From assembly GCF_012222305.1 (NCBI RefSeq), contig NZ_CP035730.1, forward strand, positions 1,116,001 through 1,180,000: DNA of 64,000 bases, given 5' to 3'. The notes under the pieces are model-generated. The model made no database searches, was not told the origin of the DNA, and worked only from the letters and a program-made list of their open reading frames with translations. Origin of the DNA: Sulfolobus sp. S-194. GTDB taxonomy: Archaea; Thermoproteota; Thermoprotei_A; Sulfolobales; Sulfolobaceae. This document shows, one piece after another, positions 27,936 through 58,333 of this stretch (position 1 is the first letter of the stretch; each line of letters starts with the position of its first letter). The position numbers and the translations under genes are program-made.

Positions 27936-28520
27936 ACTTTTTTCATTTTCTGCTCATAAGTAAGTATTTAAGCCCTAAATCCTTTTAGTTAGAAAAATTA
28001 TCATATACTAATATTAGGGTGAATTTCTTATTTTGGAATATACGTCCTCTAAGTTATTTTTAACTAATTCTATCTTAGGATCAGACAAAACATTACCTAT
28101 GATATCATTTAAATTAAACCCGATTTTATATAGGAAGTACGCAAGTTCAGAGATCGCAATTATGGGTGAGTAAGTTTTGCGTTTTCCCAGTCCTTTATCG
28201 CTAATTTATGATATTATTTCCAAAAATATTATCGCAATCACAAAATTGCTACCATCTACTCTTTCAATTTCCTCTCCTGCCCTACTATAATTTTGTTGTA
28301 TCTTCATCAGTGAACTTCCTACCTAGCCTAAATTTAGAGACAATATGTCACTTTTCTTTTCTATAATTACTCTGTTATTTTCTATATAAACTAACAACTC
28401 AGAAAGCTTAAATCTAATGAAGAGATTTCTCTCATTTTATTAACCAAATTTAATTATAATTTAATAATTTCCTTATAAACTAGTTAAGTATTAATCTTTT
28501 CTTATCTTTTGTTATATACA
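27936..28520. other. Spacer holding a dead vapC
   Basis: The gap between the ABC permease and the tetrathionate hydrolase gene contains one decayed minus-strand gene (28014-28307, listed separately) and a possible antitoxin tail just upstream of it (28290-28345, minus, KFRLGRKFTDEDTTKL). The last 60 bases hold the promoter of the next gene (CCTTATAAAC near 28471). Confidence 0.45.
28014..28307 (-). pseudogene. Decayed VapC-like PIN toxin gene
   Basis: One frame of 98 codons with a single internal TAA (28206-28208) splits a PIN-like protein: the first part reads AGEEIERVDGSNFVIAII (the VDGS segment resembles the first catalytic Asp strand), and the second reads TYSPIIAISELAYFLYKIG (helix with the catalytic Glu) and ends NNLEDVYSKIRNSP. 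The order and spacing match Sulfolobales VapC, but the last acidic motif is unclear and the N-terminal region is short. Probably inactive. Confidence 0.5.
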
Positions 28521-30119
28521 ATGAAAAGAAATAAAACAATATTGGGACTTCTTGCATTAGTACTAATCGTAACGGCAAGTGCAATATTAGTTAGCAAAAG
28601 TCAATTTTTTGATGCTACTCCTTCATCCCAGGTTTTCATTTACACTGAATATAATGGTACATATTTCCCATATACAGTGAAAGTAGTTTACTACCCCGGA
28701 AACATGAGTAATGCTAATATGAGTATGCCGACTATATGGCCAGTAACTAACTCACAACAAGATCATAACGCAGTAGTCCAAACATCTTGTAAAGCAATAC
28801 TACAAGGTGTAAACTGGGATCTTCCTGCAGCACAAATAGCTGGAGGTGTCTCAATTCCGTTAACAACTCCACCAACCCAATTACCAGGAGCTAATGTAAT
28901 GGGTGTAAAGAAAGCATTAGTAATGCTAACCCAAATGGTAGGTCAACCATTAGGAGTGACTTTAGCTGATAATTTACTATTTGTAGAGATGGACAGTTTA
29001 CCGGGAAGTGTATTCGCAATAAACCCCGTTACCGGAGAAATAGTTTGGTATGCAACTGGACTAGCAAGTTACGCAATGAATAACCCAATAGTTTGGAACG
29101 GAATAGTTTTCGTTACTGTGGGCGATGTTGGATTTAATTTCGCCAATTTTGTGCATTATGAAAAAGGTCAATATGACCAGATTGTGAGAGGAATGGGTTA
29201 TGGTGCTATTTACGCATTTAATGCAACTGATGGCAGATTAATATGGATGAGGTTTACCATGGGAGAAGCGATGCCAGCACCAGCAGTGTATAACGGAATT
29301 TTAGCTTATACAACCGGTGCAGGTTGTTTTGTAGGAGTTAATGCATCTACTGGGCAAGTAATATGGATGGATAGATTTGCCGGATTATTTGCTAGCATGA
29401 GTAGCGTAAACTACTATGTTTTACCAAACGGCACACCGTTATTTATTGGAGGATTTACCTCATTATCAAAACCTTATGGATTACTAATAGCTGTAAATGG
29501 GTATAATGGAGAAGAAGTTTGGAATGCTACATTACCAGCACCAAATGAACCTTATAATACTGGTATGGGAGACGTACCACCAGCAGTATCTCAAAAATAC
29601 GGAATAGTTGTACAAAGTACTGTAGCAAATGCAGAACCAAACGGCACAGTTGATACAATGCTCTTAGCAGTAAATGCTACAAACGGTAAAGTTTTATGGG
29701 TTACAAACTTAGGTAGAGGATATACACCACCAGCATTTAAAGGAGGAATACCATTAATAATGGGAGATACTGTTTATGTAGGAATACCTTCACTAGGTAG
29801 TGTAGCAGCAGTTAACCTATTAAACGGCTCAATTCTATGGAAAGCTAGATTACCAGACTTACAAATACCACCATCATATCCTGGAGGACCTAGGGGTAGT
29901 CCGACGTACTATCACGGATTACTATGGATAGCTGCTGGACAGTATATTTATGTCTTAAATCCACACAACGGTAAAATAATTACAATGTATTATGTGGGAG
30001 GAAGATTTGGTATTGTAAATCCAGTAATTGCAGGAGGAACAATGTACTTAGCAAACTCTTATGGGTGGGTAATTGCATTACCACTAAGTCAAATATTCGC
30101 TGATTGGATGAATTATTAA
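28521..30119 (+). CDS. tth1: Exported PQQ-like beta-propeller protein, probable tetrathionate hydrolase
   Basis: A secreted protein of about 532 aa: signal peptide TILGLLALVLIVTASAILV, then repeated beta-propeller blades ending in Trp with the pattern AxNxxTGxxxW (INPVTGEIVW, FNATDGRLIW, VNASTGQVIW, VNGYNGEEVW, VNATNGKVLW, VNLLNGSILW). Sequence length, repeat type, acid-stable composition and host match the tetrathionate hydrolase of Acidianus/Acidithiobacillus, which splits tetrathionate to thiosulfate, sulfur and sulfate outside the cell. Other PQQ-type propeller enzymes remain possible. I start at ATG 28521 rather than TTG 28509, because the signal peptide begins there. Confidence 0.65.
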   Translation: MKRNKTILGLLALVLIVTASAILVSKSQFFDATPSSQVFIYTEYNGTYFPYTVKVVYYPGNMSNANMSMPTIWPVTNSQQDHNAVVQTSCKAILQGVNWDLPAAQIAGGVSIPLTTPPTQLPGANVMGVKKALVMLTQMVGQPLGVTLADNLLFVEMDSLPGSVFAINPVTGEIVWYATGLASYAMNNPIVWNGIVFVTVGDVGFNFANFVHYEKGQYDQIVRGMGYGAIYAFNATDGRLIWMRFTMGEAMPAPAVYNGILAYTTGAGCFVGVNASTGQVIWMDRFAGLFASMSSVNYYVLPNGTPLFIGGFTSLSKPYGLLIAVNGYNGEEVWNATLPAPNEPYNTGMGDVPPAVSQKYGIVVQSTVANAEPNGTVDTMLLAVNATNGKVLWVTNLGRGYTPPAFKGGIPLIMGDTVYVGIPSLGSVAAVNLLNGSILWKARLPDLQIPPSYPGGPRGSPTYYHGLLWIAAGQYIYVLNPHNGKIITMYYVGGRFGIVNPVIAGGTMYLANSYGWVIALPLSQIFADWMNY

Positions 30120-30160: not shown

Positions 30161-30510
30161 AAGAATTAATAAAACTCCAAAATTTTAGGTTTAAGTTGCT
30201 TCGCCATAATTTCAGCCTCTTCATCTTTTAACGCTTATCATCTGTTTAAACTCAACCTAATTAATCCCTTATTATTCGTTAAGTAGTAGCTTATCATATA
30301 CACTTACACTTTTCATTTGTTTCTATTGCAGCTTTGCTACAATTTTTCTCACTTCATCGTTTACTTCTCTAAATCGATATCGTATTCTGGTACATCTTCA
30401 TTTAACCAAATAATCAAAATCTAAGGGATTTCGTAGCAAAATTTTTTCCTTGCTTTTTATCCTACCCGTAAACTGAACCTCCAACCCTTTAAGTTACTTA
30501 TTTCATCGCA
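30161..30510 (-). pseudogene. Decayed gene of unknown family
   Basis: Protein-like segments follow one another on the minus strand but in changing frames and with stops: GRIKSKEKILLRNPLDFDYL, then EDVPEYDIDLEK, then EVNDEVRKIVAKLQ, then SVSVYDKLLLNE, and finally ALKDEEAEIMAKQLKPKILE ending at a TAA. The order suggests one ancestral protein of about 110 aa broken by several frameshifts. No family is recognised; small charged proteins of this kind often belong to toxin-antitoxin pairs. Confidence 0.4.
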
Positions 30511-30783: not shown

Positions 30784-31395
30784 TTAAGGATTAAACATTT
30801 TGATAACCAGTTCTCCTTTAACAGTTAATTTGTTCTCATCGTCTATCAAACCCATCTCCCTCAGTTCTTTTAGCCTTCTCCATGTGGTAGATAAAGACAG
30901 ATTAATACGTAAGTGAATTGAATTAACGCTAGTATAACCATCCTTAATTGACATTAAGATTCTTAAGTGGTCTTGAGTTAAGTGCACGGGGTACATATCG
31001 CTTAATCTGAACGATACCACAGTATTAAAATCTTCAGATTCAATTTCAACTTCCGCCTCAAGACCGGAAAAAATAAAAGCGAATAGAACTTCTATAATTA
31101 AAATCCTCATACCTCCACTAATATTTAATACAAATCTCCTTCCCTTATTATTGTTTATAATCTTCCTAGTAATGGTAATAATTGTATCATAAAAATCGTG
31201 AGGATCAACCTCAACAAGCTCGTAGTTAACTTGAGCACTCTTCAAAACGCTCTCGAAAGACTCTAATGCCTTTTTAGCCCTTTCATCATCAAAAGAACCT
31301 ACGATAATGACTTTCTCTAAATCGGTAAACCTTCTCATTAGAGCTCTGATTTGAAATTTTTCATCAAATCCTAAAGTAACTACTAATATCATCAC
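30784..31395 (-). CDS. csa3: CARF-wHTH transcription regulator, Csa3-like
   Basis: A protein of 203 aa. Residues 1-130 form a CARF-type Rossmann domain: VVTLGFDEKFQIRAL start, conserved VLNISGGMRILIIEVL (Csa3 ring-nucleotide binding loop) and EVEIESEDF strand. Residues 140-203 are a winged helix-turn-helix (LTQDHLRILMSIKDG, LSLSTTWRRLKELREMGLI). Csa3 proteins bind cyclic tetra-adenylate and regulate CRISPR loci in Sulfolobales. There are no cas genes or repeats in this window. The regulator instead sits at the edge of a defence island beginning with a nuclease gene, so it may control that. Confidence 0.75.
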   Translation of the reverse strand: MMILVVTLGFDEKFQIRALMRRFTDLEKVIIVGSFDDERAKKALESFESVLKSAQVNYELVEVDPHDFYDTIITITRKIINNNKGRRFVLNISGGMRILIIEVLFAFIFSGLEAEVEIESEDFNTVVSFRLSDMYPVHLTQDHLRILMSIKDGYTSVNSIHLRINLSLSTTWRRLKELREMGLIDDENKLTVKGELVIKMFNP

Positions 31396-31857
31396 ACAAT
31401 AGTGAAAAATGAGAACAATAAATTTTTCGTAGAAATGAAAGTTAACTTAGCACTTTCTGAACAGTGTCATCATCGAAGTATTTATACGTTATAAGCATAC
31501 AACACATTATTTTGTTACTATATATGGAGTTCCCTTGTTTAATAAATTTATATATCAATAGCGACACTACGACGTTAAGTAATAAATCTTTCGATCAAAC
31601 TTCAAGGATAATATTAACCAAAAATCCCATGCGAGTCCTTTCAACCTACGTAGCAATTAAGCGTAGGGATCTTTAATTATTTAGGCTCATAAGGCTTATT
31701 ATACCTATATAGGACACACTTAAAAGAAAATAAGAGTTACTAATAATCAGAGATTTTTCAGAGATAATTTGATAAATATATGTAAAGCTCTAGGAAGATT
31801 ATTAACAATGATTTAACACTAAACTTAATTACTAACTCTTAAGTTATAGTTTCTTAT
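31396..31857. other. Spacer between the csa3-like and nuclease genes
   Basis: No supported gene. The minus strand at about 31570-31655 reads LAWDFWLILSLKFDRKIYYL between stops, which looks like an old gene fragment. A small hairpin (CCTACG...CGTAGG, 31648-31671) followed by a T-rich stretch may be a relic terminator. The 60 bases before 31858 are AT-rich and probably hold the promoter of the nuclease gene. Confidence 0.35.
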
Positions 31858-32478
31858 ATGTCTACGAATTGTAATAACACTTTTTTACAATGTTTTAAGA
31901 GTGATAAAATGAAGATTTGTGAATGTAATTCAGATATAAGGAATGTACTTGAAATTATACATCATTACCTAGAAAAGGTAAGAAGTAATGGAAAGTATGA
32001 TAAAAAGGATGACTGTATATATTCTGATAAAGTATATATTGAATATTCAGCTATAGTTAATTCCGTAAGAAATAATGATGCAAAATCATGTTTTGAACAA
32101 GTTATATGTAATGAGGATTACCTAAGTAAAATTTATAGTAAAAAAAGTTTCACGTTCAAACATCCAGATATTATCTTGTTGAAAAGCAAGTCCTTTACTT
32201 TTATAGTAGAATTAAAATCCTATGGGAAGCAAAATTTAAGGGATGTTTTAGAGCAGTTACATAGCTCCATTGATCATTTGCCTAACCAGTTAAGATCTGA
32301 GTGTACTGCAATAATTTATATACCTAAATCGGGCTCAGCAATACCTGAAGGATACACTTATGATCAGAATACGTATAAATTACAGAAAAAATTAGGTAAA
32401 AATAAGAAAAAGAATGAGATTTTTGGCAGCAACGTGTATGCTTATGTTTATATAGAAGGAATATTGAAGTTCATGTAA
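31858..32478 (+). CDS. PD-(D/E)XK-like nuclease of the defence island
   Basis: A protein of 206 aa. The core reads KHPDIILLKSKSFTFIVELK, that is PD followed 13 residues later by ELK, the spacing of a PD-(D/E)XK active site, with a downstream helix (LRDVLEQLHSSIDHL) and an Arg-Ser strand that fit the fold. The N-terminal 50 aa are Cys-rich (NCNN, QCF, ICECN), possibly a small metal site. ATG 31909 is an alternative start that removes some of it. Homology to a named restriction family is not claimed. It lies between a CARF regulator and the methylase region, in convergent contact with the next gene (stops abut). Confidence 0.55.
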   Translation: MSTNCNNTFLQCFKSDKMKICECNSDIRNVLEIIHHYLEKVRSNGKYDKKDDCIYSDKVYIEYSAIVNSVRNNDAKSCFEQVICNEDYLSKIYSKKSFTFKHPDIILLKSKSFTFIVELKSYGKQNLRDVLEQLHSSIDHLPNQLRSECTAIIYIPKSGSAIPEGYTYDQNTYKLQKKLGKNKKKNEIFGSNVYAYVYIEGILKFM

Positions 32479-33363
32479 TCAGCTAAGCGTATTTAACCCT
32501 TTTTCTAATCTTTTCTCGAAATCATCTTGACTCGGAAAATCAGACATTAAGGGAATTATAACCTTCTCTAAGAAGTTAATGTAACCTTCATATAATGGTT
32601 TATCTCCATAAATAGTTATACTTCCAGCTTTTGTTACATATCCTTTTTCTCTAAACGCATTAAACGTTGCCTTAACGAATTTTTCCTGGTTATATACTTT
32701 TGCATATAAAGTGCTAAGGTTAAGGAAAGAGTTTAATTTAGATACTGCAGCCTTCTCTATTATATTTTCTCTAGTTGAGAGACCCCTTAAAAATCTAGTT
32801 ACCAAAGCGAGGAATGACCTCACATCACTAGCAGATATTGCTATTATTCTAGAAAGATCATACATTAATGACGATAGTGGGGCTATAACAAAATACTTTA
32901 CCTCTTCAGTAAGAGCTTTTTCGATATTTATTTTATGCCTAATAAAGAGTTTATCAAAACCATCAAAATTGCTATTATAAGCATAAAGTTCTACATCTCC
33001 ATATTTCTTCCTCTCTTGACCACTACCTCTAATCGTTAACACCAAGATAGCTTCCTCCTCTTCAATCTTTCCCAAGAACTCAACTCTCAGATAGGATTCT
33101 CTCCAAATGAAATTTTCATCTCTTATTTTTGTTTTTATTTCTAAATTCTTATCAATTGCTAACGTAATTACATGAGGATTGAGGACTTTAACTACTGGGG
33201 AATAGTAAGACCTATCAAGAACTGAAAGTTTTGCAGTATAAATTTCCTCAATATTTATAGAAAGATTAGCAAGTAATTTACTCGAAAATTCGAGTAATTT
33301 TTGATATTTATCAAGGACACTTCCGAAGAAAGGATAATATTGTGATTTGAGTATTACCTTCAT
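32479..33363 (-). CDS. Hypothetical protein of the defence island, 294 aa
   Basis: A soluble protein with a beta-rich N-terminal half (residues 30-130: VKVLNPHVITLAIDKNLEIK, YLRVEFLGKIEEEEAIL) and a helical C-terminal half. No catalytic signature or known family can be named. Its stop codon abuts the stop of the convergent nuclease gene. The start is ATG 33363. In defence islands such accessory genes often belong to the neighbouring system; whether it works with the methylase system is unknown. Confidence 0.6.
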   Translation of the reverse strand: MKVILKSQYYPFFGSVLDKYQKLLEFSSKLLANLSINIEEIYTAKLSVLDRSYYSPVVKVLNPHVITLAIDKNLEIKTKIRDENFIWRESYLRVEFLGKIEEEEAILVLTIRGSGQERKKYGDVELYAYNSNFDGFDKLFIRHKINIEKALTEEVKYFVIAPLSSLMYDLSRIIAISASDVRSFLALVTRFLRGLSTRENIIEKAAVSKLNSFLNLSTLYAKVYNQEKFVKATFNAFREKGYVTKAGSITIYGDKPLYEGYINFLEKVIIPLMSDFPSQDDFEKRLEKGLNTLS

Positions 33364-33757
33364 TAATTGGAGTATTTCACTGTTATATATTTAAATATAA
33401 CTACTCATATCTGTCCTTTGGAACCTTATCTTTCATATTCTTAATCCTTTAAATGGCACGAAAATAGTAGATGAGACCTTTCAACTATAAAGGAAAAGAT
33501 AATATAAGACGTTAACATTATGAACCTTTTTAGCTTATATACTGAACTTAGTTTTACCGGTAGTTTTTCTCAGTTTAGTCTTTTATTTAGTTAATTATTT
33601 AGAAAATACAAGTATAATGTTTTCAGCTAAATATTTCTCTTTATATAGAACTTTTTTACATCTACTTTTTTGTAGGATTTTTCTTCTATCTATTAGTAAA
33701 TTTGTATATATAAGCAGTGATATCGATTTAACCATTTTACTTTAGTTATAATAATCT
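33364..33757. other. Spacer, nothing recognised
   Basis: An AT-rich 394-base stretch between the 294-aa gene and the broken methylase. No coding fragment, repeat or RNA is seen with confidence; T-rich runs near 33600-33660 may end transcripts from either side. Confidence 0.4.
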
Positions 33758-36486
33758 TTAAACTTCTGAGATTTTTCTTGAGGGCACTTTTTCGATATCA
33801 TTTTCCGGTAAAACCTCTGAGAATATTTTAGCTATTGCTACCGCTTCATTCACGTATCTATTTGTCTCCCTCAATTTATCAATCTCTTCCTTTAACTTAT
33901 CTGAGAACTTTAAGGCTATATACTCCAAATAGTGAAGTACTTGAACCGGATTGTTAAAATCATAATTACCAACTTTAGCTTCTCTAACATGTTCGAGTTT
34001 TTCGAAGGAGAGTATAATGTTACTATTATCAGTGACGTTTTCAGGCTCACCTAAAAATATACGTTTCCTTTTTCTGTTAACTTGAATTATTCCATTTCTT
34101 TCTAAATCCTTCTCTATTATATTACCAGTTACATTTAACAATACTAAACTATTTCTATCTATTTTCCTAACTCCTCTGGCAGGGGGTAATAACACTTTTA
34201 ATAGAATATAAAAGCTGGAATAGGGATTATCTATTCTAACACCTACGGATTCCGATAACCCTTTAATTATAGCTTGAGTAGTTACTGGGTAAATGTGATT
34301 TTTTATTAGATTTTCTATGGAATGTACTCCGTTTCCGTTAATTCCTACGATCTTTTCATACTTGGTAAATATTGACAATACCTTACCCAAAGCCACCATA
34401 TAAGTGTCTATTGATAATTTGCCCGCTTTTATATAAGAAGAGAACCATTTGGATACGTTAGATATAGTTTCATTTCTTACATCTTGAATTAATTTATTAC
34501 CCTCAGCTCTCTTCTTCCATGCAACCACGATAGACTTATCTAACGTTACAGTGCTTATGTTTGCCGTCATTCTTGTCCTATCCTTTGTAGTAACTATATG
34601 AGTAGCAATTATTCTGAACTTAGAAATAAACCAGCCTGCATAAAGTAATGATACCCATGCCTCTGGTGAAGAACTACTGAAAAATATAATCAACGTACCG
34701 TCATCTTTTAAAAGCTTGTATAATCTGAGAAAAACCTCAGCTAATTTATTCCTAAAATATTCTAACGTGCCCACTACACCTCTGTATAGCTTATTAATAT
34801 CCTTTGGCACGAATTCTTCCCATTGTGTGTTATAAGGAAACGGAAATACTCTTTTTAGCCAAACATAGAAGTAATCACTCAAATACGGCTTGTCATCTGC
34901 AAAAGGTGGATCTGTAACTATCTAATCCACTGGCTCTTTTTGCAAGTTATCTTGGTAAGAAGGAACTTCAATTTGAGAATTAGTGTTAGTATATATCAGG
35001 TATTTTAGACCCTTCTTAATATGTTCTAACAATTTAATTAGCGAACCAGAGATATTACCTAAAGGAGAAATTTCTACCCAAGTCCATGAGAATGCGAATC
35101 CCCTAAATGCCGTAACGGGAACGTTAAAAGCCCTCGTACTATCTATCGATGTTATCATACTGTTATATCTTACATGATTCAAAAAGGCCATTGTAAGATA
35201 TGTTAGTATAGCGTTTTTGTACTCCTCATCTCCATTAATCTTATCTCTTAATTCGTTTAATCTATTAACAATTTTTACTAGAATCAGTAATTGTCTCGCG
35301 TTAAATAATTTATAAAACCTATCTATACCCCATCTCACAAAGGCAAGAAGACCATAAGGAAAAGCTTTTTCAGTAGATATTTTCACAATATCTATCTCCC
35401 TTAACTTATTAAAAGCCTTCCAGAATATTTTTTTGTCTTCCTCAGTAATTTCATCAAAATCTAGATTTCTACCCTCATCCTTAAACTTAACTAGTAGTGT
35501 AGGCCTTGCTTTTGAGTTTCGTAATTCTTCTAAAGTAATCTCGCCATTTAAGAACTTCTCGTAATTTGAATTCCATTCCTTAATAGCGTCTCTAACATAC
35601 CACTCACGACCCTTACCCGGAAGAACAGAACCACAATATAGACACTTAGCGTAATTATTTCCAGCTTTCACATTACCTTGTGGAATCTCATAAGACTTGC
35701 TAGAATCCTTGAGCAGTATACGATTTTTAGAAACTTTAGCAATTATATTATTACTTCTCAACTCCTTGTTGAGGTCAATTATTTTAATACGAAGCTTATG
35801 TTCTCCACGATAGGTTTCATATAAACTATTCTTCTGAAAGTCCCCACTCTTGTATTTTCCTCTCCTTCTTCTCCCTCGCTTTCGCTTCCACTTCTCTTCA
35901 ATTCCAATAAATTCCAGGCAAAAGATAACGGAGTATAATTTCCGCATACTGGACACTTAACTTCCCAAGACCCCACATATCCAGTATAGTCACCATAAAG
36001 TTCTTTAATGTCATCCTTTAAGCTTTCTATCAAATCTTGGCCATACTTTTCAATGTCTTTTATGAGTTTTTGTCCATATTTTGGATATACGAGCACTCCT
36101 TTGAGAAACGTATAGGCAGTGGGTATAGGATCTGAAGCAATAACTTTCTTAAATCCAAGCCTTTTTGCTTCTAATGCAAAGGAACCAAATCCAGCGAAAG
36201 GATCTAAAAAGGTAGAGTTTCTGAAGCTCTCAGTAATCTCTGGGTTAAATTTGTGTGGTAAATCCTTATCCAGTCTTATCATTGTCTTGTATTCCTCAAT
36301 GCTAAAATCTTCTGGGAGTAATGCAGCTGTTATAAACGCTCTAGCTGAGAGTAATGGCTCTCTACCCCACCACAATACTATTTCCCAAAATGGAGGCCTT
36401 CCTGGGCCTTTTTCTTTTGAGGCCTTTCTATCAATTTCCGAAATAATTGACGAAAAGCTATCACTCTCTATAAACAAATTATCCAT
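33758..36486 (-). pseudogene. Broken DUF1156 adenine methylase, inverted copy of the Hma-like methylase
   Basis: This is a full-length relative of the intact methylase at 36812, in the opposite orientation, but broken twice. Part 1 (36486-35779) ends after FRRIVYMKPIVEN; near 35818 a one-base shift moves the frame to GEHKLRIKIIDLNKE. Part 2 then reaches an in-frame TAG at 34922-34924, directly before IVTDPPFADD, which holds the catalytic motif. Part 3 resumes in the same frame. A segment of about 10 aa present in the intact copy (near VDEARKKAFG) is lost. Motif I (DPFAGFG) and the zinc-ribbon cysteines remain. It is no longer able to make an active enzyme without readthrough. Confidence 0.85.
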
Positions 36487-36811
36487 ACTACCTTTTTAGT
36501 TATAGCAAATTATTAGATTTTATCATTCTCACATTAATTTTAGTCATAAACTAATCAATAATTTTAAAGCTAACATAGATTTTGAATTTAAATTGATGTG
36601 TATTTGAATATCCTATTAGAATCTATCATTCTCAAGGTCTGAATTGAAAACTAATAGGTATATGTTAGCTTCTGCCTAAATTATTTAGTATAATTTACTT
36701 ATCGAATGTGTGTTAAAATAGAAACTTAGCTTCAATATTAATTTAAACTTTCATTCACCTCTCTATGTTATAGATAGAAAAGCTAATAATTTGCTCTCTC
36801 TACCTTAAAAT
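36487..36811. other. Divergent promoter region between the two methylase copies
   Basis: The 325-base gap separates the broken copy (minus) from the intact copy (plus). It is AT-rich and holds an imperfect direct repeat, ATTAGATTTTATCATTCTCA near 36510 and ATTAGAATCTATCATTCTCA near 36618, which could be regulator sites. No TATA box can be placed securely; the ATG at 36812 has a near-leaderless look. Confidence 0.35.
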
Positions 36812-39574
36812 ATGGATAAGCGTCTTATTGAGAGTGACAAGTTCTCCTCCATTATTCCAGAAATTGATAAAAAAGCTGCGAAAGAGAAGGGACCTGGTAG
36901 ACCTCCTTATTGGGAAATGATATTTTGGTGGACTAGAAAACCTTTAATTTCCGCAAGGGCTTTTATAGTTGCCTCTCTTTTACCTGAGAATTTTGATATT
37001 ACAGAATATAAAAGGATTATAAGGCTGAATGAGGATCTTCCACACAAATACCAACCAATAACTAACGGTAAATTTTCTAACTATACACTTCTAGATCCAT
37101 TCGCAGGATTTGGTTCAATTCCACTTGAAGCAAAAAGACTAGGATTGGGAAAAGTCATAGCATCAGAACTCCTACCTACCGCTTATGTTTTCTTGAAAGC
37201 AGTTCTTGAGTATCCTAAGTACGGAGAGAAACTCTTAAAGGATGTTGAAAAATACGGTAAAGAACTAATTGAAAGCATTAAGGAAGACGTGAAAGAACTC
37301 TATCAAGATAATGCGGGTTTTGTAGGCACATGGGAAGTTAAATGTCCAGTTTGCGAGAATTACACTCCTCTAGTAAACCAGTGGTGGTTACTAGCATTAA
37401 AAGAAGGAAGCAATGACGATGAAGAAGAGGAAGAAGAAGAAGTTAAATCTGGTGCGTTTCGGAGGCTGGTATACATGGAGCCAATAAAGGAAGGCAATAG
37501 GATCCATATTAGAGTAGTTGATTTAAACAAAGAACTAGGTGTGAAAAAAGTGAGGGCAAAAATGGCTAAGGATAAGGTAGTAATTGACGGAAAAGAGTAT
37601 CGTGTACCCCAAGGTAATGTTAATGCAAAAAGCAGTAGTGCCAGGTGTTTATACTGTAATAACGTATTTCCAGGAAAGGGAGAGAAGTGGTATGTTAGAG
37701 AGGCTATTAAGGAATGGAATTCAAATTACGAGAAGTTCTTAAATGGCGAGATTACTTTAGAAGAATTATGGAGTTCTAAGGCTAGGCCTAGACTTTTGGT
37801 AAAGTTCAAAGGCGAATCTAAGGATGTGGTTTTTGAAGAAATTACCAGAGAGGATGAAAAAGCATTTTTGAGCACATTTGAAAAATTAAGGGAAATAGAT
37901 ATAACTAAAATACCCACGGAAAAAGCTACTCCTTACGGAACAATAGTTTTTTCAGCATGGGGCATAGATAGATTTTATAAATTATTTAATGCTAGGCAAT
38001 TATTGATCCTTGCAAGGATAACTGAGAAGCTTAACCAGATAAGGGACAAAATAGAAGGAGATTATGAATATAAAGAAGTAATTATGACATACTTAGCTAT
38101 AGCCTTTTTAAATCATATAAGGCATAATTGCATGCTAACCTCGATTGAACCTAGTAGGAAAATTATTAGAGAGGCTACCGGATTTAGGAGATTTGCATTC
38201 ACATGGAATTGGGTTGAAATCTCCCCTTTAGCTAATATAATAGGTTCATTGCCTAAGAGTTCAGAACATATAATTGAAGGACTCGAATACTTAATACGAA
38301 CCTACAGCGATTCGCAAGTTGAAGTCCTTCAATCAGATGTAAACGATTTAAGGCTTGATCCCGTTGATGCTATTGTTACTGATCCCCCTTATGCGGATGA
38401 TGTACCATATCCTGAAGTAAGTGATTTCTACTATGTCTGGTTAAAGAGAGTGTTTCCATTACCATATACTACACAATGGGAAGAATTCGTACCAAGAGAT
38501 ATAGGAGTGGATGAGGCGAGAAAAAAAGCATTCGGAAACGGCATAGGTACTTATGATTACTTTAGGGAGAGACTGGCGAAGGCTTTCTTGAATCTTAGTG
38601 AATTATTAAAGAGTGATGGTGTACTGGTCACTTTTTACAACCACACTTCACCTGAGGCGTGGTCATCCTTACTTTATGCTGGTTGGTACTATTCGAAGTT
38701 CAGAATTTCAACAACTCATGCAATAACTACAGAGGACGAGACAAGAATAACTGCTAGAGGCACTATTTCCCTCGATAAATCCATTGTTATAGTTTGGAGA
38801 AAAAGAGCAGAAGGTACTAAACATATACAAGAAGTTAAGAAATACACTATCTCTTCAGTTTCAGATTGGATATCTGCAAATATTAAATCACTATCTTTAG
38901 ATACATATATAGAAGTATTAGGTAAAGTGCTGTCAGAGTTTACTAAATATGAAAAACTATTAGGCTTAAAAGGAGAAGGAATAAAAGCAGTAGAAGATCT
39001 AGTCTCTAATCACGTCTTTCCAACAGTTGTTCAGTCCTTAATAGAAGGACTATCTAAGGGAGCTGGAGCTAGAATCGAAAACCCATACTCGACATTTTAC
39101 GTTTTAGTCAAAGCATTAATTCCGCCCTCTAAAACAGTGAGGAAGTTAGACAAAAATGCCTTAATATTCTTAAACGTATCCGGAAATATTACTAAGGATA
39201 ACCTACTTCAGAATAATATAATAAAAGCCGAAAAGGACACTATCTATTTGATGGAACCAGAAAATGCAAGTGACTTAAATGATAAAATACAATCATTTGA
39301 AATGCTAGATTACGTTAAATCTGCAATTTCAGGTAGTTATAATTTCTCTAATCCTATTCAAGTACTTCATTACTTAGAATATATAGCACTAAAATACCCA
39401 GATAAATTGCAGGAAGAAATTATTAAACTTAAAGAAAAGACACGATTTGTAGATGAGGCATTGTCAATTGCCAAAATATTTACTAAGGTACTCAATGAAA
39501 AAGATATTGAATATGAAGCTGCATGTAAGATTATAGGAGGTTGTAAAGAAGGAATTGAGAAATGGGTGAGGTAA
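36812..39574 (+). CDS. DUF1156 adenine-specific DNA methyltransferase of an Hma-like system
   Basis: A protein of 920 aa of the COG1743/DUF1156 family. Order of parts: N-terminal KEKGPGRPPYWEMIFWW (DUF1156 signature), SAM motif I DPFAGFGS (residues 95-102), zinc-binding cysteines CPVCENY and CLYCNN, the family-specific WNSNYEKFLNGE block, the N6-adenine catalytic motif DPPY at residues 524-527, and a long C-terminal domain (FTKYEKLLGLKGEG). It modifies adenine and is the self-marking or control component of the system. Its TAA is immediately followed by the ATG of the DUF499 ATPase gene (zero gap), a coupled operon. An inverted, broken copy lies upstream. Confidence 0.9.
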   Translation: MDKRLIESDKFSSIIPEIDKKAAKEKGPGRPPYWEMIFWWTRKPLISARAFIVASLLPENFDITEYKRIIRLNEDLPHKYQPITNGKFSNYTLLDPFAGFGSIPLEAKRLGLGKVIASELLPTAYVFLKAVLEYPKYGEKLLKDVEKYGKELIESIKEDVKELYQDNAGFVGTWEVKCPVCENYTPLVNQWWLLALKEGSNDDEEEEEEEVKSGAFRRLVYMEPIKEGNRIHIRVVDLNKELGVKKVRAKMAKDKVVIDGKEYRVPQGNVNAKSSSARCLYCNNVFPGKGEKWYVREAIKEWNSNYEKFLNGEITLEELWSSKARPRLLVKFKGESKDVVFEEITREDEKAFLSTFEKLREIDITKIPTEKATPYGTIVFSAWGIDRFYKLFNARQLLILARITEKLNQIRDKIEGDYEYKEVIMTYLAIAFLNHIRHNCMLTSIEPSRKIIREATGFRRFAFTWNWVEISPLANIIGSLPKSSEHIIEGLEYLIRTYSDSQVEVLQSDVNDLRLDPVDAIVTDPPYADDVPYPEVSDFYYVWLKRVFPLPYTTQWEEFVPRDIGVDEARKKAFGNGIGTYDYFRERLAKAFLNLSELLKSDGVLVTFYNHTSPEAWSSLLYAGWYYSKFRISTTHAITTEDETRITARGTISLDKSIVIVWRKRAEGTKHIQEVKKYTISSVSDWISANIKSLSLDTYIEVLGKVLSEFTKYEKLLGLKGEGIKAVEDLVSNHVFPTVVQSLIEGLSKGAGARIENPYSTFYVLVKALIPPSKTVRKLDKNALIFLNVSGNITKDNLLQNNIIKAEKDTIYLMEPENASDLNDKIQSFEMLDYVKSAISGSYNFSNPIQVLHYLEYIALKYPDKLQEEIIKLKEKTRFVDEALSIAKIFTKVLNEKDIEYEAACKIIGGCKEGIEKWVR

Positions 39575-42500
39575 ATGGCTGACTTTTCTCTTTATAATAA
39601 CGTAATTCCAAGAGAAGATGTGTTTAACCCTAAGTTTGATGATGAGGTAGCACCAGAACTAAGTGATGTGTATAAAGGTACTGCACCTAGTATTTACACT
39701 AATCCTGAAGAATTTTTTACGATAACATATTTCACTGATTCAATGAAAAGCCTAGTAAAAGATGTATCAGAATCCTTCAGAGTAGGGAAGGGAATGACTA
39801 TACCATTATATTCTTTCTTTGGCGGAGGAAAGACTCACTCTTTAATTATGCTTTATCATGCCTTCAAAAACCCAGATATTGCAAAGAAGTATAATTTAGA
39901 CGTGGAAAGTGGAGTTAAGGTAATAGTCGTAGGAGGTAAGGATTCAACTACTGCACCGTCCCCAGATACGCCATCGGACGTTAAGACTCTTTGGGGATAT
40001 ATAGCTAAACAACTGGGTAAATATGATGTAGTTGCACGTGCTGATAATGACTTTATGGCACCTCACAAGGATGTCTTGGAAAAATTATTTGAAGGTGAGA
40101 AGGTTTTAATTTTGTTTGATGAAATAGTCTGGTATTTATCGAGGCTTAAGCATTCACTCTATGGAAATTACTATAATCAATGTCTATTGTTTTTTGAAAA
40201 CTTAGCATCAGTAACTACTAATCTGCCAGTAGTAATAGTGGTAACAATCCCGGGTAAATACTATGAGAAAACTGGTGTAGTTCAAGCTGAGAGAGGTTAT
40301 GAAGACGTTGTCGAGGAACTTTCAAAGAGAATTGAAAGAGTAGGTAAAATATATAGAGCACCAATAGAGACCCCCATTGACTTAGGAAATGTATTGAAGA
40401 GGAGGTTGTTCAAGAGTATTAATGAGGAAATTATCCCTCTTATTAAGAGTAAATATTCTAAGTATCTTGAAGATTTTAAAGACTATGTAGACCAGAAAAG
40501 TATTGAGAATTTTGATAATGCTTATCCATTTCATCCATATTATCTGGAGTTATTAAAATTACTTCTCGAAGAAACTGGGCTTCAAAGTACTAGAGATGGA
40601 ATAAGACTCAGTAGGATGGTGATAAGATCACTTTGGAGCAATAAACCTAAAAGAAGTTTAATTTTACCATCTGATATTGATATTAGGAATGAACAGTTTA
40701 AAGTACTTTTACTTAAAAATTATACCGATTTTGATAAGGTAGTAGATTCAATTAAAGATATAACTAAAGGACTTTCAATCTACTTCAATCTAGCTAATTA
40801 TATTTTTCTTTCAACCTATATGTTCAAGTTAGGTTTAGACCCTGGACAATTAAGGAACGCTTTACCAGATAGTAGAAAAGTCATAACTTCAGTTTTAGAC
40901 CCGTTATATCTAGAAGACATTTCTTTAACTCCGGCTGAGGCTAAGATTAAACTTAAGGATATGACAACAGAAAGCCAGAATATTGATAAAATAGTACCTT
41001 ATTTGATATCTTCAGAGGACAAATATTGGTTTACTTCGTTCTTAGATCCTATTACAATATGTAAGAGAGGGAAAAGTAAGGTTCTAGATTCAGAGGCTGT
41101 AGATTTTTTGAGAGATAAGATAGAGGATCTTGCTGAAACACCGCAGGATATTAAGGAAAAAAGAGCTAAGAAAGAGGCATACAGAGGAATCATTAAGGAG
41201 TTTCACTTTGTAGTCGATATAGATCACCTAATTGATGTAGATGAGGAGAAATATATTCTAGCCATCTTGTGGAAACCTATATGTGAAGGCTGCAATCCTC
41301 AAAACGTTAATGAGAGTCAATATTATGACTTAATCAGAAACTTCATTTATAATGTACCTTCTGGCAAATCTGTTTCCCCGAGAAAGAATGCTAATTCCAT
41401 AGCCATAATGTATTCTTTGCTAGGAAATAATAAGGACAAATTAGTTGAATATGCTAAGGAGTATATTTCATGTAATAATATGGATGTTTCTAAATATTAT
41501 TCTGATGACGTGAGTAAAAATGTAGCTAAAAAAATGTTAAATGATTTTTTATCAAGCCTCCAAAACACCATTTACACCTTAATATTTAACTATTACGATA
41601 GAATAGCTTATCCTTACGGTTCTAATGATATTCAAGTAGCTAGCTTATCCACTACTGAGAAAACACTACTCGGAAATGCGGAGCAAACACTAAGAAACGA
41701 AAATAAGATAATTTCTGAGAATAACTTTGATTTCGAGACCTTAGCATATTACCTTGAACAGATAAACATTAATATTAAGGAAAAGCAGATCTCATACCCA
41801 CAACTAAGATCAATGTTTTACACAAATCCAATGCTCCCTTGGGTGAGTGAAGAAGCGTTAAAATATGCACTGATATCTGGGCTTAAATCTTACTCTGTAG
41901 GAATTTTATCAGGAAGTAAAATTTACTTTAAGATCTTAGAGGGAAGTACGGTAGAGTATGGTACTTCATTAATAGACAATTCTACCACTATTTTGCCTTC
42001 AAATATTGCTGCGGAAAAACAGATCGAAAGCTTACTTGAGGAAGAGAAGGAAATTGATGAAGGAGATAGGATACATAAAATATACTACGTTATAGCTACA
42101 GATGAAGAAGAAATTCCGTTAAGAGATCTTAGAAATAGGGAAAATTGGCTCGATATATTTATTAACGGTAAGCTAAGGAGAAAGGAAGAAGTAATTGAGA
42201 GCGGTGTGAGAGTGGAAACAGAACCTAGAAGTATAACAGCTAAGCAAGGAGATATTGTATCTGTTAAGATTAAGGTAAACAAGTTAGGAAAATTCGATAA
42301 GGAAGTTTATATTGAAACGAATAAGGGAAGTTTAAGTAAAAACAGCGGAGTTCCGCCTTTTGAGACAGAGTTAACTTTGACTGTTGAAGATGATATTCCT
42401 ATAAGGATTGTAGTTAAATATGATAACAGAACAGCAGAACTGGAGATACCAATAGAACTAAGAAAAGAAATTGAGCAATGTGAGAAGATTTTAGATATCA

Positions 42501-42850
42501 ACGATGCAATAAATCCCGTTATTTCAAGAGTCAATATAATTGATGTGAAGAATGCATTAAATATACTAGATAGGCTTAGAATTGTTCCAGGGGTTAAGAC
42601 TGTTGAAGGTGAAGTAACTATTGAAGATCCTTCAAAAATAAGTGTCTTGCTAAAACCTAGAGATATGAAGTTGGACGAATTCATACAATTCTTAAACCGT
42701 CAGATAATACTCGTAGGGTTAAAGGCTTCAGTTACCGGTAAGATAACAGTAAAAGTAAATGATCCGAAACCGTTAGATGAAAAGGATAAGAAAAAGCTAA
42801 TAGATTTAATCTCTAAGAATGCGATTAGTGTTTGGACTAAGGTGTGTTAG
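39575..42850 (+). CDS. DUF499 AAA+ ATPase of an Hma-like system
   Basis: A protein of 1091 aa of the COG1483/DUF499 family. Walker A is SFFGGGKTHS near residue 87, Walker B is VLILFDEIVWYLS near residue 180, and arginine-finger-like helices follow (GIRLSRMVIRSLW). The C-terminal part is a set of beta-rich and helical domains. DUF499 ATPases always occur with DUF1156 methylases and helicases in defence islands; they probably act as NTP-driven partners in recognising or loading on foreign DNA. The gene ends in TAG and its last 7 bases overlap the GTG start of the next gene. Confidence 0.9.
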   Translation: MADFSLYNNVIPREDVFNPKFDDEVAPELSDVYKGTAPSIYTNPEEFFTITYFTDSMKSLVKDVSESFRVGKGMTIPLYSFFGGGKTHSLIMLYHAFKNPDIAKKYNLDVESGVKVIVVGGKDSTTAPSPDTPSDVKTLWGYIAKQLGKYDVVARADNDFMAPHKDVLEKLFEGEKVLILFDEIVWYLSRLKHSLYGNYYNQCLLFFENLASVTTNLPVVIVVTIPGKYYEKTGVVQAERGYEDVVEELSKRIERVGKIYRAPIETPIDLGNVLKRRLFKSINEEIIPLIKSKYSKYLEDFKDYVDQKSIENFDNAYPFHPYYLELLKLLLEETGLQSTRDGIRLSRMVIRSLWSNKPKRSLILPSDIDIRNEQFKVLLLKNYTDFDKVVDSIKDITKGLSIYFNLANYIFLSTYMFKLGLDPGQLRNALPDSRKVITSVLDPLYLEDISLTPAEAKIKLKDMTTESQNIDKIVPYLISSEDKYWFTSFLDPITICKRGKSKVLDSEAVDFLRDKIEDLAETPQDIKEKRAKKEAYRGIIKEFHFVVDIDHLIDVDEEKYILAILWKPICEGCNPQNVNESQYYDLIRNFIYNVPSGKSVSPRKNANSIAIMYSLLGNNKDKLVEYAKEYISCNNMDVSKYYSDDVSKNVAKKMLNDFLSSLQNTIYTLIFNYYDRIAYPYGSNDIQVASLSTTEKTLLGNAEQTLRNENKIISENNFDFETLAYYLEQININIKEKQISYPQLRSMFYTNPMLPWVSEEALKYALISGLKSYSVGILSGSKIYFKILEGSTVEYGTSLIDNSTTILPSNIAAEKQIESLLEEEKEIDEGDRIHKIYYVIATDEEEIPLRDLRNRENWLDIFINGKLRRKEEVIESGVRVETEPRSITAKQGDIVSVKIKVNKLGKFDKEVYIETNKGSLSKNSGVPPFETELTLTVEDDIPIRIVVKYDNRTAELEIPIELRKEIEQCEKILDINDAINPVISRVNIIDVKNALNILDRLRIVPGVKTVEGEVTIEDPSKISVLLKPRDMKLDEFIQFLNRQIILVGLKASVTGKITVKVNDPKPLDEKDKKKLIDLISKNAISVWTKVC

Positions 42851-43260
42851 CCTTGTACGTTATTAGAGAAAGTTTAAGTGAAGGGAAACCAAGATTACAT
42901 TATTATAGAATTACACAAAATAATGAAAGTTTCAAGGTCTTTAAAGCATCTCTAAGTCTTTCAGAATTAAATGAGATATTACTTTCAAGAACAGATATTA
43001 AGTTTAATAGGACTAAAAAGACCTTAAGCACAGATAATGAAAGATTATTTAAAATGAGTATAGTATATGGAGGAGTTAGGCAAGCTTTACGAAAAGTTAC
43101 TAAATCTAGATTAATCTCGATTGCAAAAGCTTTGCTATCCCTAGAAGAATTCAGTTTACAATTTTGGTATACAGAATTTATTTCGAGATATTCTCGTAGA
43201 AATAGTATACTAGATGCTTACAGAGTAAGTAAATCTTTTAGGGATCTATATGAGCTATGA
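42844..43260 (+). CDS. Small protein between the ATPase and helicase of the Hma-like system
   Basis: A protein of 138 aa starting at GTG 42844 inside the end of the ATPase gene. It looks alpha/beta: a beta-rich start (LHYYRITQNNESFKVFKASL) and a basic helical end (ALRKVTKSRLISIAKALL). No family is recognised. It overlaps the helicase gene by 11 bases, so the three genes are translated together. It may be the archaeal version of the small accessory proteins (for example DUF3780) found in bacterial relatives, or a new part. Confidence 0.6.
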   Translation: MLALYVIRESLSEGKPRLHYYRITQNNESFKVFKASLSLSELNEILLSRTDIKFNRTKKTLSTDNERLFKMSIVYGGVRQALRKVTKSRLISIAKALLSLEEFSLQFWYTEFISRYSRRNSILDAYRVSKSFRDLYEL

Positions 43261-45973
43261 TTTGAAATTTGCTAAATTCGTTTTTGCTGAGTTGAAAGAG
43301 ACCCATCCATTCTTTAGATATCCACTGCTTACTTCAGGGGATTATGAGCCTTATCTTCATCAAGCTGAGATCTTTTATAGGCTTTTACTCAGACAGCCAG
43401 TTAGGTTTTTAATTGCTGACGATGTAGGGCTCGGTAAAACAATTGAAGGGGTCATGGTAATTGATCAACTAGTTAAGAATAGGAAAGCAAGAAAGGTTCT
43501 GCTAATAGTCCCTAGGGTTTTAATTAACCAGTGGGTCTATGAACTTAATAGGTTTAGGAGTGAATGGAATTTATCGGTTTATGAATACGATGGAAAAGGA
43601 GATGTAAAGAATGAAGGAATTTACATAGTTAGTATAGACACAATTAAAAGAGAAAACCACAAGAAGAAGTTCCTTGATACTAAGTGGGATTTAGTTGTAG
43701 TGGACGAGATACATAAAGTAGGAGTAGTGGGTTCTAAGGAAAATTTAAGATATAAAACAATGGCGGAACTTACGGGTAAAAACCCAGATGGTAACTTTTT
43801 AGGCCTATCCGCAACTCCCCATAGAGGTAATGATAATGATTATTTAAAGAGGTTAAACTTAATCGATCCATACTTAAGGGAAGCTAATGATGATTTACTA
43901 AGAACGAGTGTTAGAGCAATAATCCAAAAAAGGAATAAAGATAACGTAAATAAAATATACGAAAAAGAGAAGATATTCCCAGATGCAATGTTTATTCAAT
44001 ATATAGTTGAACCTACAGAAGAAGAAAAGAATTATTATGAAAAAATAAGGGATTTAACTCTTACAATACTCAGGGAATATTATAATAAAATAGGGAAGAG
44101 TCCTAAAGGATTACCTCTCCTATCATTTATGATTGGAAGAAGATCTCTTTCTAGTCCATATGCTGGTTTGCTTACTTTTCAAAGAATGCTTGAAAAGAGG
44201 GCTGCAATCCTATATGAGGAAGAAGTATTAGATCAAGCAGAAGAATATGCGGAAGACGAAGAGATTGAGGAAGAGAGCGAGCCAGATGAAGTAGCTAATA
44301 GACTTGCTGAGTTAAGTGTTAAATATCTGGAGAAAATTGGCCATGAATTTTTACAGAAATTTGAAAAGTATATCCAAGATTTGACAAGACTTGCTAAAAG
44401 CGTTATGAGTAATGATAGTAGAGTGAAGTCAGTAATTGAGCTGGCTAAATCACATCTAGATAAAGGAGATAAGGTTATTATATTCACAGAATATAAGGAT
44501 ACAGCAGAATATATTTATAGTAAATTCAAAAACGAGCTTCATACTCATAATATTGAGGATGTAATAAAGATAGTTACTAGCGAAACACTAGCCAAAGAGG
44601 GAATTGATAAGGTAAAGAAATGGCTTGAAAAGGGCAGAGCTAAGGTTATGGTTGCTACAGATGTTGCTTCTGAAGGTTTAAATCTACAATCAGCGAATGT
44701 TATAATTCATTATGAACTTCCTTTGAGTATAGTTAGGTTTGAACAGAGGAACGGTAGAGTTTGGAGGTTAAAGCAGAGTAAACAAGTATATATTTACTAT
44801 TTGGCATTAAAGACTGACATAGAGCAGTCAATATTAGATCATTATTATAATAAACTCCTGGAAATTACTAAGGGTACCGGATCTGAAGTTAATGTTGCTG
44901 ATGCTCTAGTGTATAAACAAGGAAATGCTCATAGGATATTTAATTTAAGCCAGGAAAAAGAATCAATACCTATTTATTTAGGTTATAATGACCCACAGAA
45001 AAAAGAGGAGAGAATAACTTCTATTAAAATTTGGGAATCAGTAATCCAGGGTAATGTTGATGATATTGTCAAGACAATGCTCAACAGAATAAAAATTTTG
45101 AAAGATACAATGAGGAAATTTGCACTCTATGAGTCAATGCAAGGAGCTGCTATTGTGGAAATAGATAATGTGAGAAAACTGGTAGGGTTTAATAATAGGG
45201 CCGAATTAAAGTCTGCACTTCAGACTTTTTTAGAGGAGCTCTTGAAGAAACTTAAGGGAAGAATTGATAACGGCAAAATCTTCTACAGTGGTGGAATAAT
45301 AGAAGATTATGATCCTTTAAGAATAGGTAGGATAATTGATGCTATTGATCAGATTATATCCCATACTTCAAAAGATAAGAAGAACTTTATTGTGTGTGAT
45401 TCCTTAGATTATAATGTATACTTGACTAACGCTAAAGTTATTTTAAGGAATAGAGAAGTAGCTTTAGAAGCTATAGATATTCCAGTAATTGTTAGCTCTA
45501 AGATGCAAGAGATTCCACTCTCTAAATTTTTCACTGAAATATTACCTTTAACATTAGATTGCAGGAAGATTTATCCGGATGAAGTAAATATAATTAAGAC
45601 TAATAATTATTCTATAGTGAATAATGTGAAGTCTTTAGTGTTTAAATTATTAGAAAATTATACTAGATATAGGCAATTAAGAGGAAGGGATAAATGGTTG
45701 CCCAATAATAGGGAGGAAATTGACGTAGACGTTAATATAAAGGGAGGAATTATAGGAGTTTATGATGAAAAGGAGTATTTAAATAAGACACTTGAAGCAT
45801 TAAAAGGAAAAGGTATGATTACATTTACACAAGGCATTTATAGGTTAGAAGAGAAAGGAGAAGTAAAATATATTAAAATTGTAAATCCTAAGGAGATTTT
45901 TAATGAGTTAAACAAGGGATATTGGGTTTACACTTTCTCAAATGGTGCATTAGTTGGTGTTAAAAATGGTTGA
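43250..45973 (+). CDS. SNF2-type helicase of the Hma-like system
   Basis: A protein of 907 aa of helicase superfamily 2, Swi2/Snf2-like (DrmD/RapA-like). Motifs: DVGLGKTIEGVM (Walker A, near residue 58), VVVDEIHKVG (DEAH-type box), LGLSATPHRGN (motif III), FTEYKDTAEYIYSKF (motif IV), ATDVASEGLNLQSANVIIH (motif V) and QRNGRVWRLKQ (motif VI). An acidic linker (EEYAEDEEIEEESEPDE) lies between the lobes. It translocates on DNA and is the likely effector motor. Its end overlaps the ATG of the MBL nuclease gene. Confidence 0.9.
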   Translation: MSYDLKFAKFVFAELKETHPFFRYPLLTSGDYEPYLHQAEIFYRLLLRQPVRFLIADDVGLGKTIEGVMVIDQLVKNRKARKVLLIVPRVLINQWVYELNRFRSEWNLSVYEYDGKGDVKNEGIYIVSIDTIKRENHKKKFLDTKWDLVVVDEIHKVGVVGSKENLRYKTMAELTGKNPDGNFLGLSATPHRGNDNDYLKRLNLIDPYLREANDDLLRTSVRAIIQKRNKDNVNKIYEKEKIFPDAMFIQYIVEPTEEEKNYYEKIRDLTLTILREYYNKIGKSPKGLPLLSFMIGRRSLSSPYAGLLTFQRMLEKRAAILYEEEVLDQAEEYAEDEEIEEESEPDEVANRLAELSVKYLEKIGHEFLQKFEKYIQDLTRLAKSVMSNDSRVKSVIELAKSHLDKGDKVIIFTEYKDTAEYIYSKFKNELHTHNIEDVIKIVTSETLAKEGIDKVKKWLEKGRAKVMVATDVASEGLNLQSANVIIHYELPLSIVRFEQRNGRVWRLKQSKQVYIYYLALKTDIEQSILDHYYNKLLEITKGTGSEVNVADALVYKQGNAHRIFNLSQEKESIPIYLGYNDPQKKEERITSIKIWESVIQGNVDDIVKTMLNRIKILKDTMRKFALYESMQGAAIVEIDNVRKLVGFNNRAELKSALQTFLEELLKKLKGRIDNGKIFYSGGIIEDYDPLRIGRIIDAIDQIISHTSKDKKNFIVCDSLDYNVYLTNAKVILRNREVALEAIDIPVIVSSKMQEIPLSKFFTEILPLTLDCRKIYPDEVNIIKTNNYSIVNNVKSLVFKLLENYTRYRQLRGRDKWLPNNREEIDVDVNIKGGIIGVYDEKEYLNKTLEALKGKGMITFTQGIYRLEEKGEVKYIKIVNPKEIFNELNKGYWVYTFSNGALVGVKNG

Positions 45974-48579: not shown

Positions 48580-48940
48580 ACCTAAGAAATAACAAAATTA
48601 AATGGAGAGAGTAAAGTGTTTTTCAGGGAAGAGAAAATGCAAATATAAGGCATTTATGGCTATCATAATTCAAAATATGAGATTACTATTGAACTATAGT
48701 ATTTTCTATGTAAATTAGCTATCTTAGACTAATATCTTTTCCGTGTGAAGACTGATTAGTTTAATGAGTTTAAATTAGAATAAAATACCATATCTACAGA
48801 CTAGTTTTCGTTAAATAATTGCTAGAGGATTTCAGTTAAAAATCTCTGTAAATATATAAAATCAACTATTTGATATAATCGTTTATTAGACATTTGTTAA
48901 TCATCTCTTCTATTCACTCTGTTTATTAACATTAAATTCC
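48580..48940. other. Spacer, nothing recognised
   Basis: An AT-rich 361-base stretch holding the start region of the inactive methylase paralogue (right edge to the left) and the end region of the DUF1028 gene. No coding fragment or repeat is seen. Confidence 0.45.
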
Positions 48941-57924: not shown

Positions 57925-58168
57925 TTGTCTAATTTTAAGCTTTACTATGTAAAACGTTTAAAAAGATTTGCTAATTAAAAGAATAGTTAGCATATAGCAT
58001 ATTAAAATGTAGTATAGAGGAAAAGACATGATAACAACGGTTGTTCAAAAGGAAGAAACAGAAATAGACATTAAGAAAGCTATAAAAGCTAGCCTACTAA
58101 TGACATTTTTCTTAGTAGCAGTCCCAATAAATAGTATAATGCTAACACAAGCAATAATAACTTATGTT
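57925..58168. repeat. Left arm of a long inverted repeat (with 61332-61653)
   Basis: This arm covers the promoter and first 141 coding bases of the small protein gene at 58028. Its complement lies at 61332-61653 around the gene at 61474. The coding part is identical (141 of 141). Upstream, the arms match through TTTACTATGTAAAACGTTTA and TTAGCATAT; the right arm has about 75 extra bases bounded by TAGCATAT on both sides, so the left arm lost them by a short-repeat deletion. Confidence 0.85.
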
Positions 58169-58333
58169 TATCCACAAGCTTCTGACTGCTTTATTGGAGC
58201 ATCTATTGGATATTTTGTTAATAATATTATTCCAATACTTTCAGGCTGGGCTGGTGTACTAGCAGCAAATAGTGCATCAATGTCAAATCCCTTAACAATG
58301 GGAGTTTATCTTGGTTTAGTTGAAACTGCGTAA
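58028..58333 (+). CDS. Small hydrophobic protein with a shared leader and a different core (cassette C)
   Basis: A protein of 101 aa. Residues 1-47 are identical to those of the 133-aa protein of cassette B (same DNA), then the sequence changes abruptly to a Cys/Gly/Ala-rich core (YPQASDCFIGASIGYF) and ends NPLTMGVYLGLVETA. It is preceded by the same ribosome site (GAGG). Downstream, the spacer and start of a large membrane protein gene are recognisable but it stops after 10 codons (MSKLNFFQIS). So the small protein is intact, but its partner gene is truncated. Confidence 0.6.
   Translation: MITTVVQKEETEIDIKKAIKASLLMTFFLVAVPINSIMLTQAIITYVYPQASDCFIGASIGYFVNNIIPILSGWAGVLAANSASMSNPLTMGVYLGLVETA

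Follow-up and report, generated by a model that had tools for sequence, protein, structure and literature searches.

The window, a stretch of 64,000 nucleotides from the Sulfolobus sp. S-194 genome, contains a gene for a CARF and winged-helix regulator, here called csa3b, at the edge of a defense island (Table 1). The gene starts with a GTG codon at 31395 and lies at C1:1146784-1147395 in the genome, and the coordinates in the first-pass annotation were right. That annotation had called the product a Csa3-type CARF regulator, which was borne out. The protein matched Csa3_N (Pfam PF22662, E 1.1e-27, 96.8 bits against a cut-off of 27), a winged helix-turn-helix at residues 151-184 (PF13412, HTH_24, E 4.1e-7, 29.9 bits against 21.9), and, along its whole length, the Csa3 model TIGR01884 (103.3 bits, curated cut-off 60.2), all above their cut-offs, and PADLOC CARF3--CARF at E 2.1e-70. 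In other words, it combined a whole-protein match to Csa3 with both CARF motifs for cyclic tetra-adenylate (cA4) and a C-terminal winged helix. These family libraries were applied to the genes from 30784 to 42850, a selection of the open reading frames; the Pfam search also took in 28509-30119 and left out 39575-42850. A profile of 12 Csa3 rows matched the PDB structures 6w11, 2wte, and 6wxq; the single sequence found no match among PDB sequences with phmmer. No match to it was found among plasmid and phage records at E 1e-5 or among viral contigs, and the genome_contigs set held one relative with 36% identity.

Table 1. Features around csa3b, in positions of the window
Feature	Position	Strand	Remarks
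csa3b, CARF and winged-helix regulator	30784..31395	-	203 aa; studied by families, residues, structure-profile match, tree, and dN/dS
Candidate operator CTTTCATTTCTACGAAAA	31424..31441	-	csa3b promoter; one mismatch to TTTYCR-N6-YGRAAA
PD-(D/E)XK-like protein	31858..32478	+	206 aa; divergent neighbor of csa3b
Convergent partner of the PD-(D/E)XK-like gene	32479..33363	-	294 aa; same pair in G029 and G122

The divergent neighbor of csa3b had been described as a PD-(D/E)XK-like nuclease. The motif part of that description stood, with P103-D104...E118-x-K120 invariant in all three aligned homologs, one of them 35% identical; no family match was significant (CTLH at E 0.027 and PDDEXK_15 at E 0.04, both below cut-off). 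The structural model was weak (pLDDT 64.4) and its best PDB match reached E 0.1; the top matches, all insignificant, included several restriction-type nucleases. No relative was found among viral contigs. The gene was present in three of the 147 genomes of the order (E 0.01, window genome counted), and in all three it was convergent with a homolog of the 294-aa gene, whose own model (pLDDT 52.8) was too weak for naming. In G029 the pair (nuclease-like protein 89% identical, partner 91%) lies about 10 kb from csa3b, with a methylase, a helicase, and a PLD protein in between. The nuclease-like gene was not found in G030, which does have csa3b. In G122, from another family, the pair is distantly related (partner 25-27%), and the 19 kb read there contained no homolog of csa3 or of the Hma genes of the window. 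Because the linkage is not conserved, the closeness of this gene to csa3b is best put down to chance, in an island whose content varies, and the gene is most likely an unrelated neighbor. The two convergent genes at 31858-33363 form a possible small two-gene module.

Further along the island is an Hma-like defense set (36812-48579) that begins with a DUF1156 methylase and a DUF499 ATPase. The methylase matched HmaB at E 1.1e-42, with a better match to another methylase model at E 3.8e-136, and the ATPase matched HmaC at E 4.6e-44. The later genes, named by reading, are presumably a small protein, a helicase, a metallo-hydrolase-like protein, and a second methylase-like protein. A set with the same order and 34-68% identity was found in G029. 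Beside the intact DUF1156-type methylase gene (36812-39574) there is a second copy in three ORF pieces (33758-36486, minus strand), and G029 has a methylase copy likewise in pieces in the same place. The sister genomes have different genes beside csa3b. In both G029 and G030 a gene of 178-184 aa lies between csa3b and a PQQ-repeat gene, and positions 30239-30372 of the window are 81-86% identical to DNA inside that gene, which suggests that a decayed copy persists in the window genome. Elsewhere in the window, two adjacent ORFs at 11931-13250 (minus strand) are presumably a photolyase by their reading, and the ORFs at 58028-58333 (plus strand) and 61073-61474 (minus strand) share their first 47 residues on opposite strands, a local inverted duplication.

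The csa3b protein was matched at E 1e-6 or better in 24 of the 31 genomes of the family, the window genome counted. The genus is represented by three further genomes, two of which (G029 and G030, referred to here as the sister genomes) hold the closest relatives (88-89% identity); the G030 ortholog (88%) is at 1160104-1160712. The next relatives (46-56%) belong to two other genera, and in four genomes (G013, G014, G015, and G020) the relative is encoded on the strand of a type I-A interference operon, directly ahead of its csa5 and cas7. In a tree of 33 rows, with the sequences of SiRe_0765 and Sso1445 absent, the window protein fell into a clade of 10 rows (support 97/97) together with the Csa3 proteins that head I-A operons in four genomes (L055-L058), and seven Csa3a-like rows stood apart from it (100/99). 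Inside the clade the tie between the window protein and that of G020 was weak (85/59). No cas gene of a labelled cluster was found within 3.5 kb of L052 and L053 (both G018) or of the three clade members of this genus. The stretch STTWRRL in the winged helix, which is presumably the DNA-reading helix, is close to that of the operon-linked Csa3b and unlike that of Csa3a. Tree, gene order, and promoter palindrome (see below) together identify the window gene as the Csa3b that belongs to the type I-A interference operon. It groups with the Csa3 of interference operons rather than with Csa3a, and the name was given because of this descent, despite the missing adjacency to the operon, a trait that is typical of Csa3b and was taken as not defining.

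The first-pass annotation had noted that the regulator has no cas genes or CRISPR repeats near it. As far as the searches reached, this was correct within the window: no 22-mer recurred at CRISPR spacing in the 64 kb, and a genome-wide search for the Cas10 palm, I-A Cas7, and Csa4 gave no location inside it. As a guide to function the observation was misleading, since a cognate operon is present elsewhere in the genome. A type I-A interference operon with csa5, cas7, cas5, cas3', cas3'', CsaX, and cas6 was found at G000:C1:150801-156901, about 1 Mb from csa3b. Six of its genes were named by NCBIfam matches above cut-off and Cas6 by 53.9 bits, below its cut-off of 58.65; the Csa4 model TIGR01914 missed the operon, and the gene in that place matched CsaX. 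The operon is flanked by CRISPR arrays: in the two loci read there, the script applied to the window detected one 22-mer of 66 copies and another of 74. The best matches to the operon proteins were all in G020 (62-75% identical), whose operon, the most similar one, has csa3b as its first gene; no csa3 was found at the head of the operon in the window genome. In the sister genomes csa3b and the I-A operon are likewise apart, and the fourth genome of the genus (G028) has neither a close csa3b nor this operon type. Two other Csa3 proteins above cut-off are encoded in the window genome, at 140612, beside csa1, cas1, cas2, and cas4, and at C1:1930046. Despite its orphan-like position, the gene in the window probably encodes a conventional regulator of CRISPR that works from afar.

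A strict palindrome, TTTYCG-N6-CGRAAA, was found in the csa5 promoters of the window genome, G029, and G030. It is 18 bp long; in the window genome it is placed 50-67 bases before csa5 and occurs once, compared with three occurrences of the reversed control. A broader pattern, TTTYCR-N6-YGRAAA, was counted from 150 bases before to 70 bases after ORF starts, replacing an earlier position weight matrix (PWM) made from ten sites that was weak in most of the g6 loci. Nine of 15 csa5 start regions contained the broad pattern exactly, a tenth (L055) had it with one mismatch, and four (L060, L062, L065, and L071) had two or three mismatches; L090, with three, is of a different I-A type with an unassigned gene in the position of csa5. 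For comparison, 541 start regions were taken from other ORFs of at least 120 aa, picked mechanically in the fetched loci, some of which overlap. Here the exact pattern was found in four and a match with at most one mismatch in 19, these four included. All four were at the heads of cas operons, in three distinct places: before the first gene of an operon for a Cas10-like protein in the window genome, counted twice in overlapping loci, and, in G017, before a gene of the same type and before a small gene in the csa5 place ahead of cas7. The broad pattern was drawn up with most of the csa5 sites already known. Out-of-sample evidence is therefore limited to L055-L057, of which two match exactly and one has a single mismatch, and to the cas operon heads of the comparison set.

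Across whole genomes, the palindrome is not enriched over its reversed control, with 6 exact copies versus 12 in the window genome, 7 versus 15 in G029, 8 versus 15 in G030, and 11 versus 7 in G028. Two of the six places in the window genome are before the I-A operon and before a type III operon. Across 20 genomes, the type III first gene had an exact palindrome upstream in four, at -135 in the window genome and at -33 in three g7 genomes that share one 18-mer, and the copy in G028 had one mismatch. It was missing upstream of this gene in G029 and G030 (three mismatches) and in G020 (four), so control of the type III operon is only a suggestion. The csa1 promoter of the window genome had no good site (PWM score 5.0). 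The csa5-promoter palindrome is a candidate Csa3b operator, as defined from sequence. A csa5-promoter site or footprint was reportedly published by He et al. in 2017, and the palindrome may already be known.

A copy of the palindrome with a single mismatch precedes csa3b too, both in this genus and in G020. In the window genome an AT-rich box, ATTTATT, comes after it, some 20-28 bases ahead of the start codon, and the copy is in the same place in both sister genomes. Its PWM score of 8.7 was reached by 2.6% of promoter-length stretches of the window and by 12.3% of stretches of the length of 31396-31857, and given that 19 of 541 other start regions match as well, this copy taken by itself is weak evidence.

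The first-pass annotation had proposed that cyclic-nucleotide signaling may switch on non-CRISPR defense here, and had pointed to 31396-31857 and 36487-36811 as places to look for binding sites. Taken to mean a CARF regulator freed from CRISPR that acts on the neighboring nuclease-like gene and the Hma-like methylase/ATPase/helicase set, this we consider highly improbable. The position of csa3b beside a DUF1156 methylase and a DUF499 ATPase fits it, and in the sister genomes there are defense-like genes within 10 kb of csa3b, clearly in G029 and weakly in G030; the neighbors themselves, however, are not conserved. The intergenic stretch at 31396-31857 did yield one candidate site in the divergent gap, which as a site for control of the neighbor was rejected: it sits in the promoter of csa3b, with 417 bases between it and the nuclease-like gene, and it persists in the sister genomes, in which the nuclease-like gene does not adjoin csa3b. 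Elsewhere in that stretch (31442-31857) and in 36487-36811 the palindrome had three mismatches at best, and the PWM gave -2.0 at best before the nuclease-like gene (31720-31860) and -1.2 in 36487-36811. A further one-mismatch palindrome, at 48620-48637, lies 41 bases before the gene at 47230-48579 (minus strand); it is within chance expectation, and the G029 counterpart of that gene has none before it (three mismatches). As far as the palindrome derived here can tell, 31442-31857 and 36487-36811 hold no candidate site for a non-CRISPR role; linkage is not conserved either, and the proposal is not supported, given the missing sites, the unstable neighbors, and a cognate I-A operon that carries the palindrome. 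The I-A operon is also the kind of CRISPR locus that had been imagined just outside the window; it is about 1 Mb off, and its discovery goes towards refuting a CRISPR-independent role.

A regulator parted from its operon might also be a relic that no longer matters, and the upstream DNA of csa3b is indeed unlike that of the sister genomes beyond about 31440. The core promoter is kept, however, as are both cA4 motifs, and dN/dS against the two orthologs was 0.058 and 0.087 at a synonymous divergence of 0.7-0.9. Similar values (0.042-0.079, window genome versus G029) were obtained for csa5, cas7, and cas5. The gene is kept under purifying selection while standing alone, and we give the relic reading almost no credence. 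It is also improbable, if somewhat less so than the two preceding readings, that the csa5 palindrome belongs to another regulator, such as the Csa3 encoded at C1:1930046 or Cascade, and that the window Csa3b binds elsewhere. There are two further Csa3 proteins to choose from, and no published Csa3b footprint has been matched to the palindrome; against this are the one-mismatch copies before csa3b in this genus and in G020, and the winged-helix stretch of the operon-linked type.

Two CARF motifs for cA4, defined on the S. solfataricus Csa3 (PMC8844856), were looked for in the csa3b product. Motif 1 is L8-G9-F10-D11-E12-K13-F14, with T7 and R17, and fits L-G-F-D-x-K-F; motif 2 is S93-G94-G95-M96-R97. 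Glu122, which that paper describes as affinity-limiting, corresponds by alignment to E121, and the less conserved contacts Pro35, Val39, and Thr42 given there are F, R, and K in plain numbering. Three Cas10-like proteins of the window genome have the GGDD motif. Those at about 212 and 1969 kb matched Cmr2 (168 and 307 bits, cut-off 79.4), and the one at about 168 kb matched Csm1 with 53 bits, below the cut-off of 170. The fit of the motifs together with GGDD in these proteins makes cA4 control of the csa3b product plausible. Against it counts the finding (PMC8699464, PMC8844856) that in vitro DNA binding by the S. solfataricus Csa3a was nonspecific and not raised by cA4.

The evidence points to a Csa3b that has become detached from its I-A operon and would regulate it in trans, binding the palindrome, repressing the operon, and sensing cA4, and we regard this reading as likely. 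Under it, a Csa3b dimer would bind the 18-bp palindrome before csa5, about 1 Mb away, and keep the I-A operon repressed in peacetime. At the weaker copy before its own gene the protein would limit its own synthesis, and it may also act on the type III operon with the exact copy further upstream. The CARF domain would sense cA4 made by the type III Cas10 proteins. We infer the DNA binding, the repression, the autoregulation, and the cA4 effect, and the same action as that of the S. islandicus protein, here in trans, is inferred from the behavior described in PMC7480081. More speculatively, and on balance doubtfully, one unlinked Csa3b may couple I-A repression to type III activation through the shared palindrome, which is placed at the I-A promoter and at a greater upstream distance from the type III operon, with selection preserving regulator and operon side by side in this genus despite the missing linkage; if true, cA4 from type III would reset type I-A from a megabase away. 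The preferred reading, a known regulator that is detached and probably acts in trans on CRISPR-Cas, corrects the tempting view that an orphan CARF protein signals a new kind of defense, and gives the lone regulator a likely target. It supplies a conserved candidate operator open to a simple binding test. It also cautions against taking a CARF regulator for CRISPR-independent just because the surrounding tens of kilobases hold no cas genes.

One of the sister genomes, G030, we take to be that of S. tokodaii 7, in which case its csa3b ortholog is probably ST1161, and ST1161 is probably an ortholog of the window gene. ST1161 of Sulfolobus tokodaii is named as a csa3 homolog far from cas cassettes in a 2015 review (PMC4390879). 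In the literature compared, which did not include He et al. 2017, neither an assignment of the distant gene to Csa3b nor the palindrome in this genus was found. According to PMC7480081, S. islandicus Csa3b acts together with Cascade to repress the I-A operon until a virus draws Cascade away, represses adaptation genes, and activates cmr. It binds a cA4 analogue as well as the promoters of csa1 and cmr, and with the analogue its KD at the csa1 promoter dropped from 4.24 to 0.30 uM. The window protein resembles this Csa3b (SiRe_0765 of S. islandicus REY15A) in combining CARF and winged-helix domains, in its CARF motifs, and in its tie to I-A interference (PMC7480081). The difference is one of position, SiRe_0765 adjoining the I-A interference genes whereas the window csa3b is about 1 Mb from its operon, and target binding, measured for SiRe_0765 in that source, is predicted for the window protein. 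The gene layout at L055-L057 is that described for csa3b and csa3a of S. solfataricus in PMC8699464. Sso1445, the Csa3a of Saccharolobus solfataricus (2wte, 6w11, 6wxq), shares the family and the cA4 motifs with the window protein (PMC8844856, PMC8699464). Unlike the window protein, it goes with adaptation genes and with another DNA site, and the Csa3a-like rows form a separate clade.
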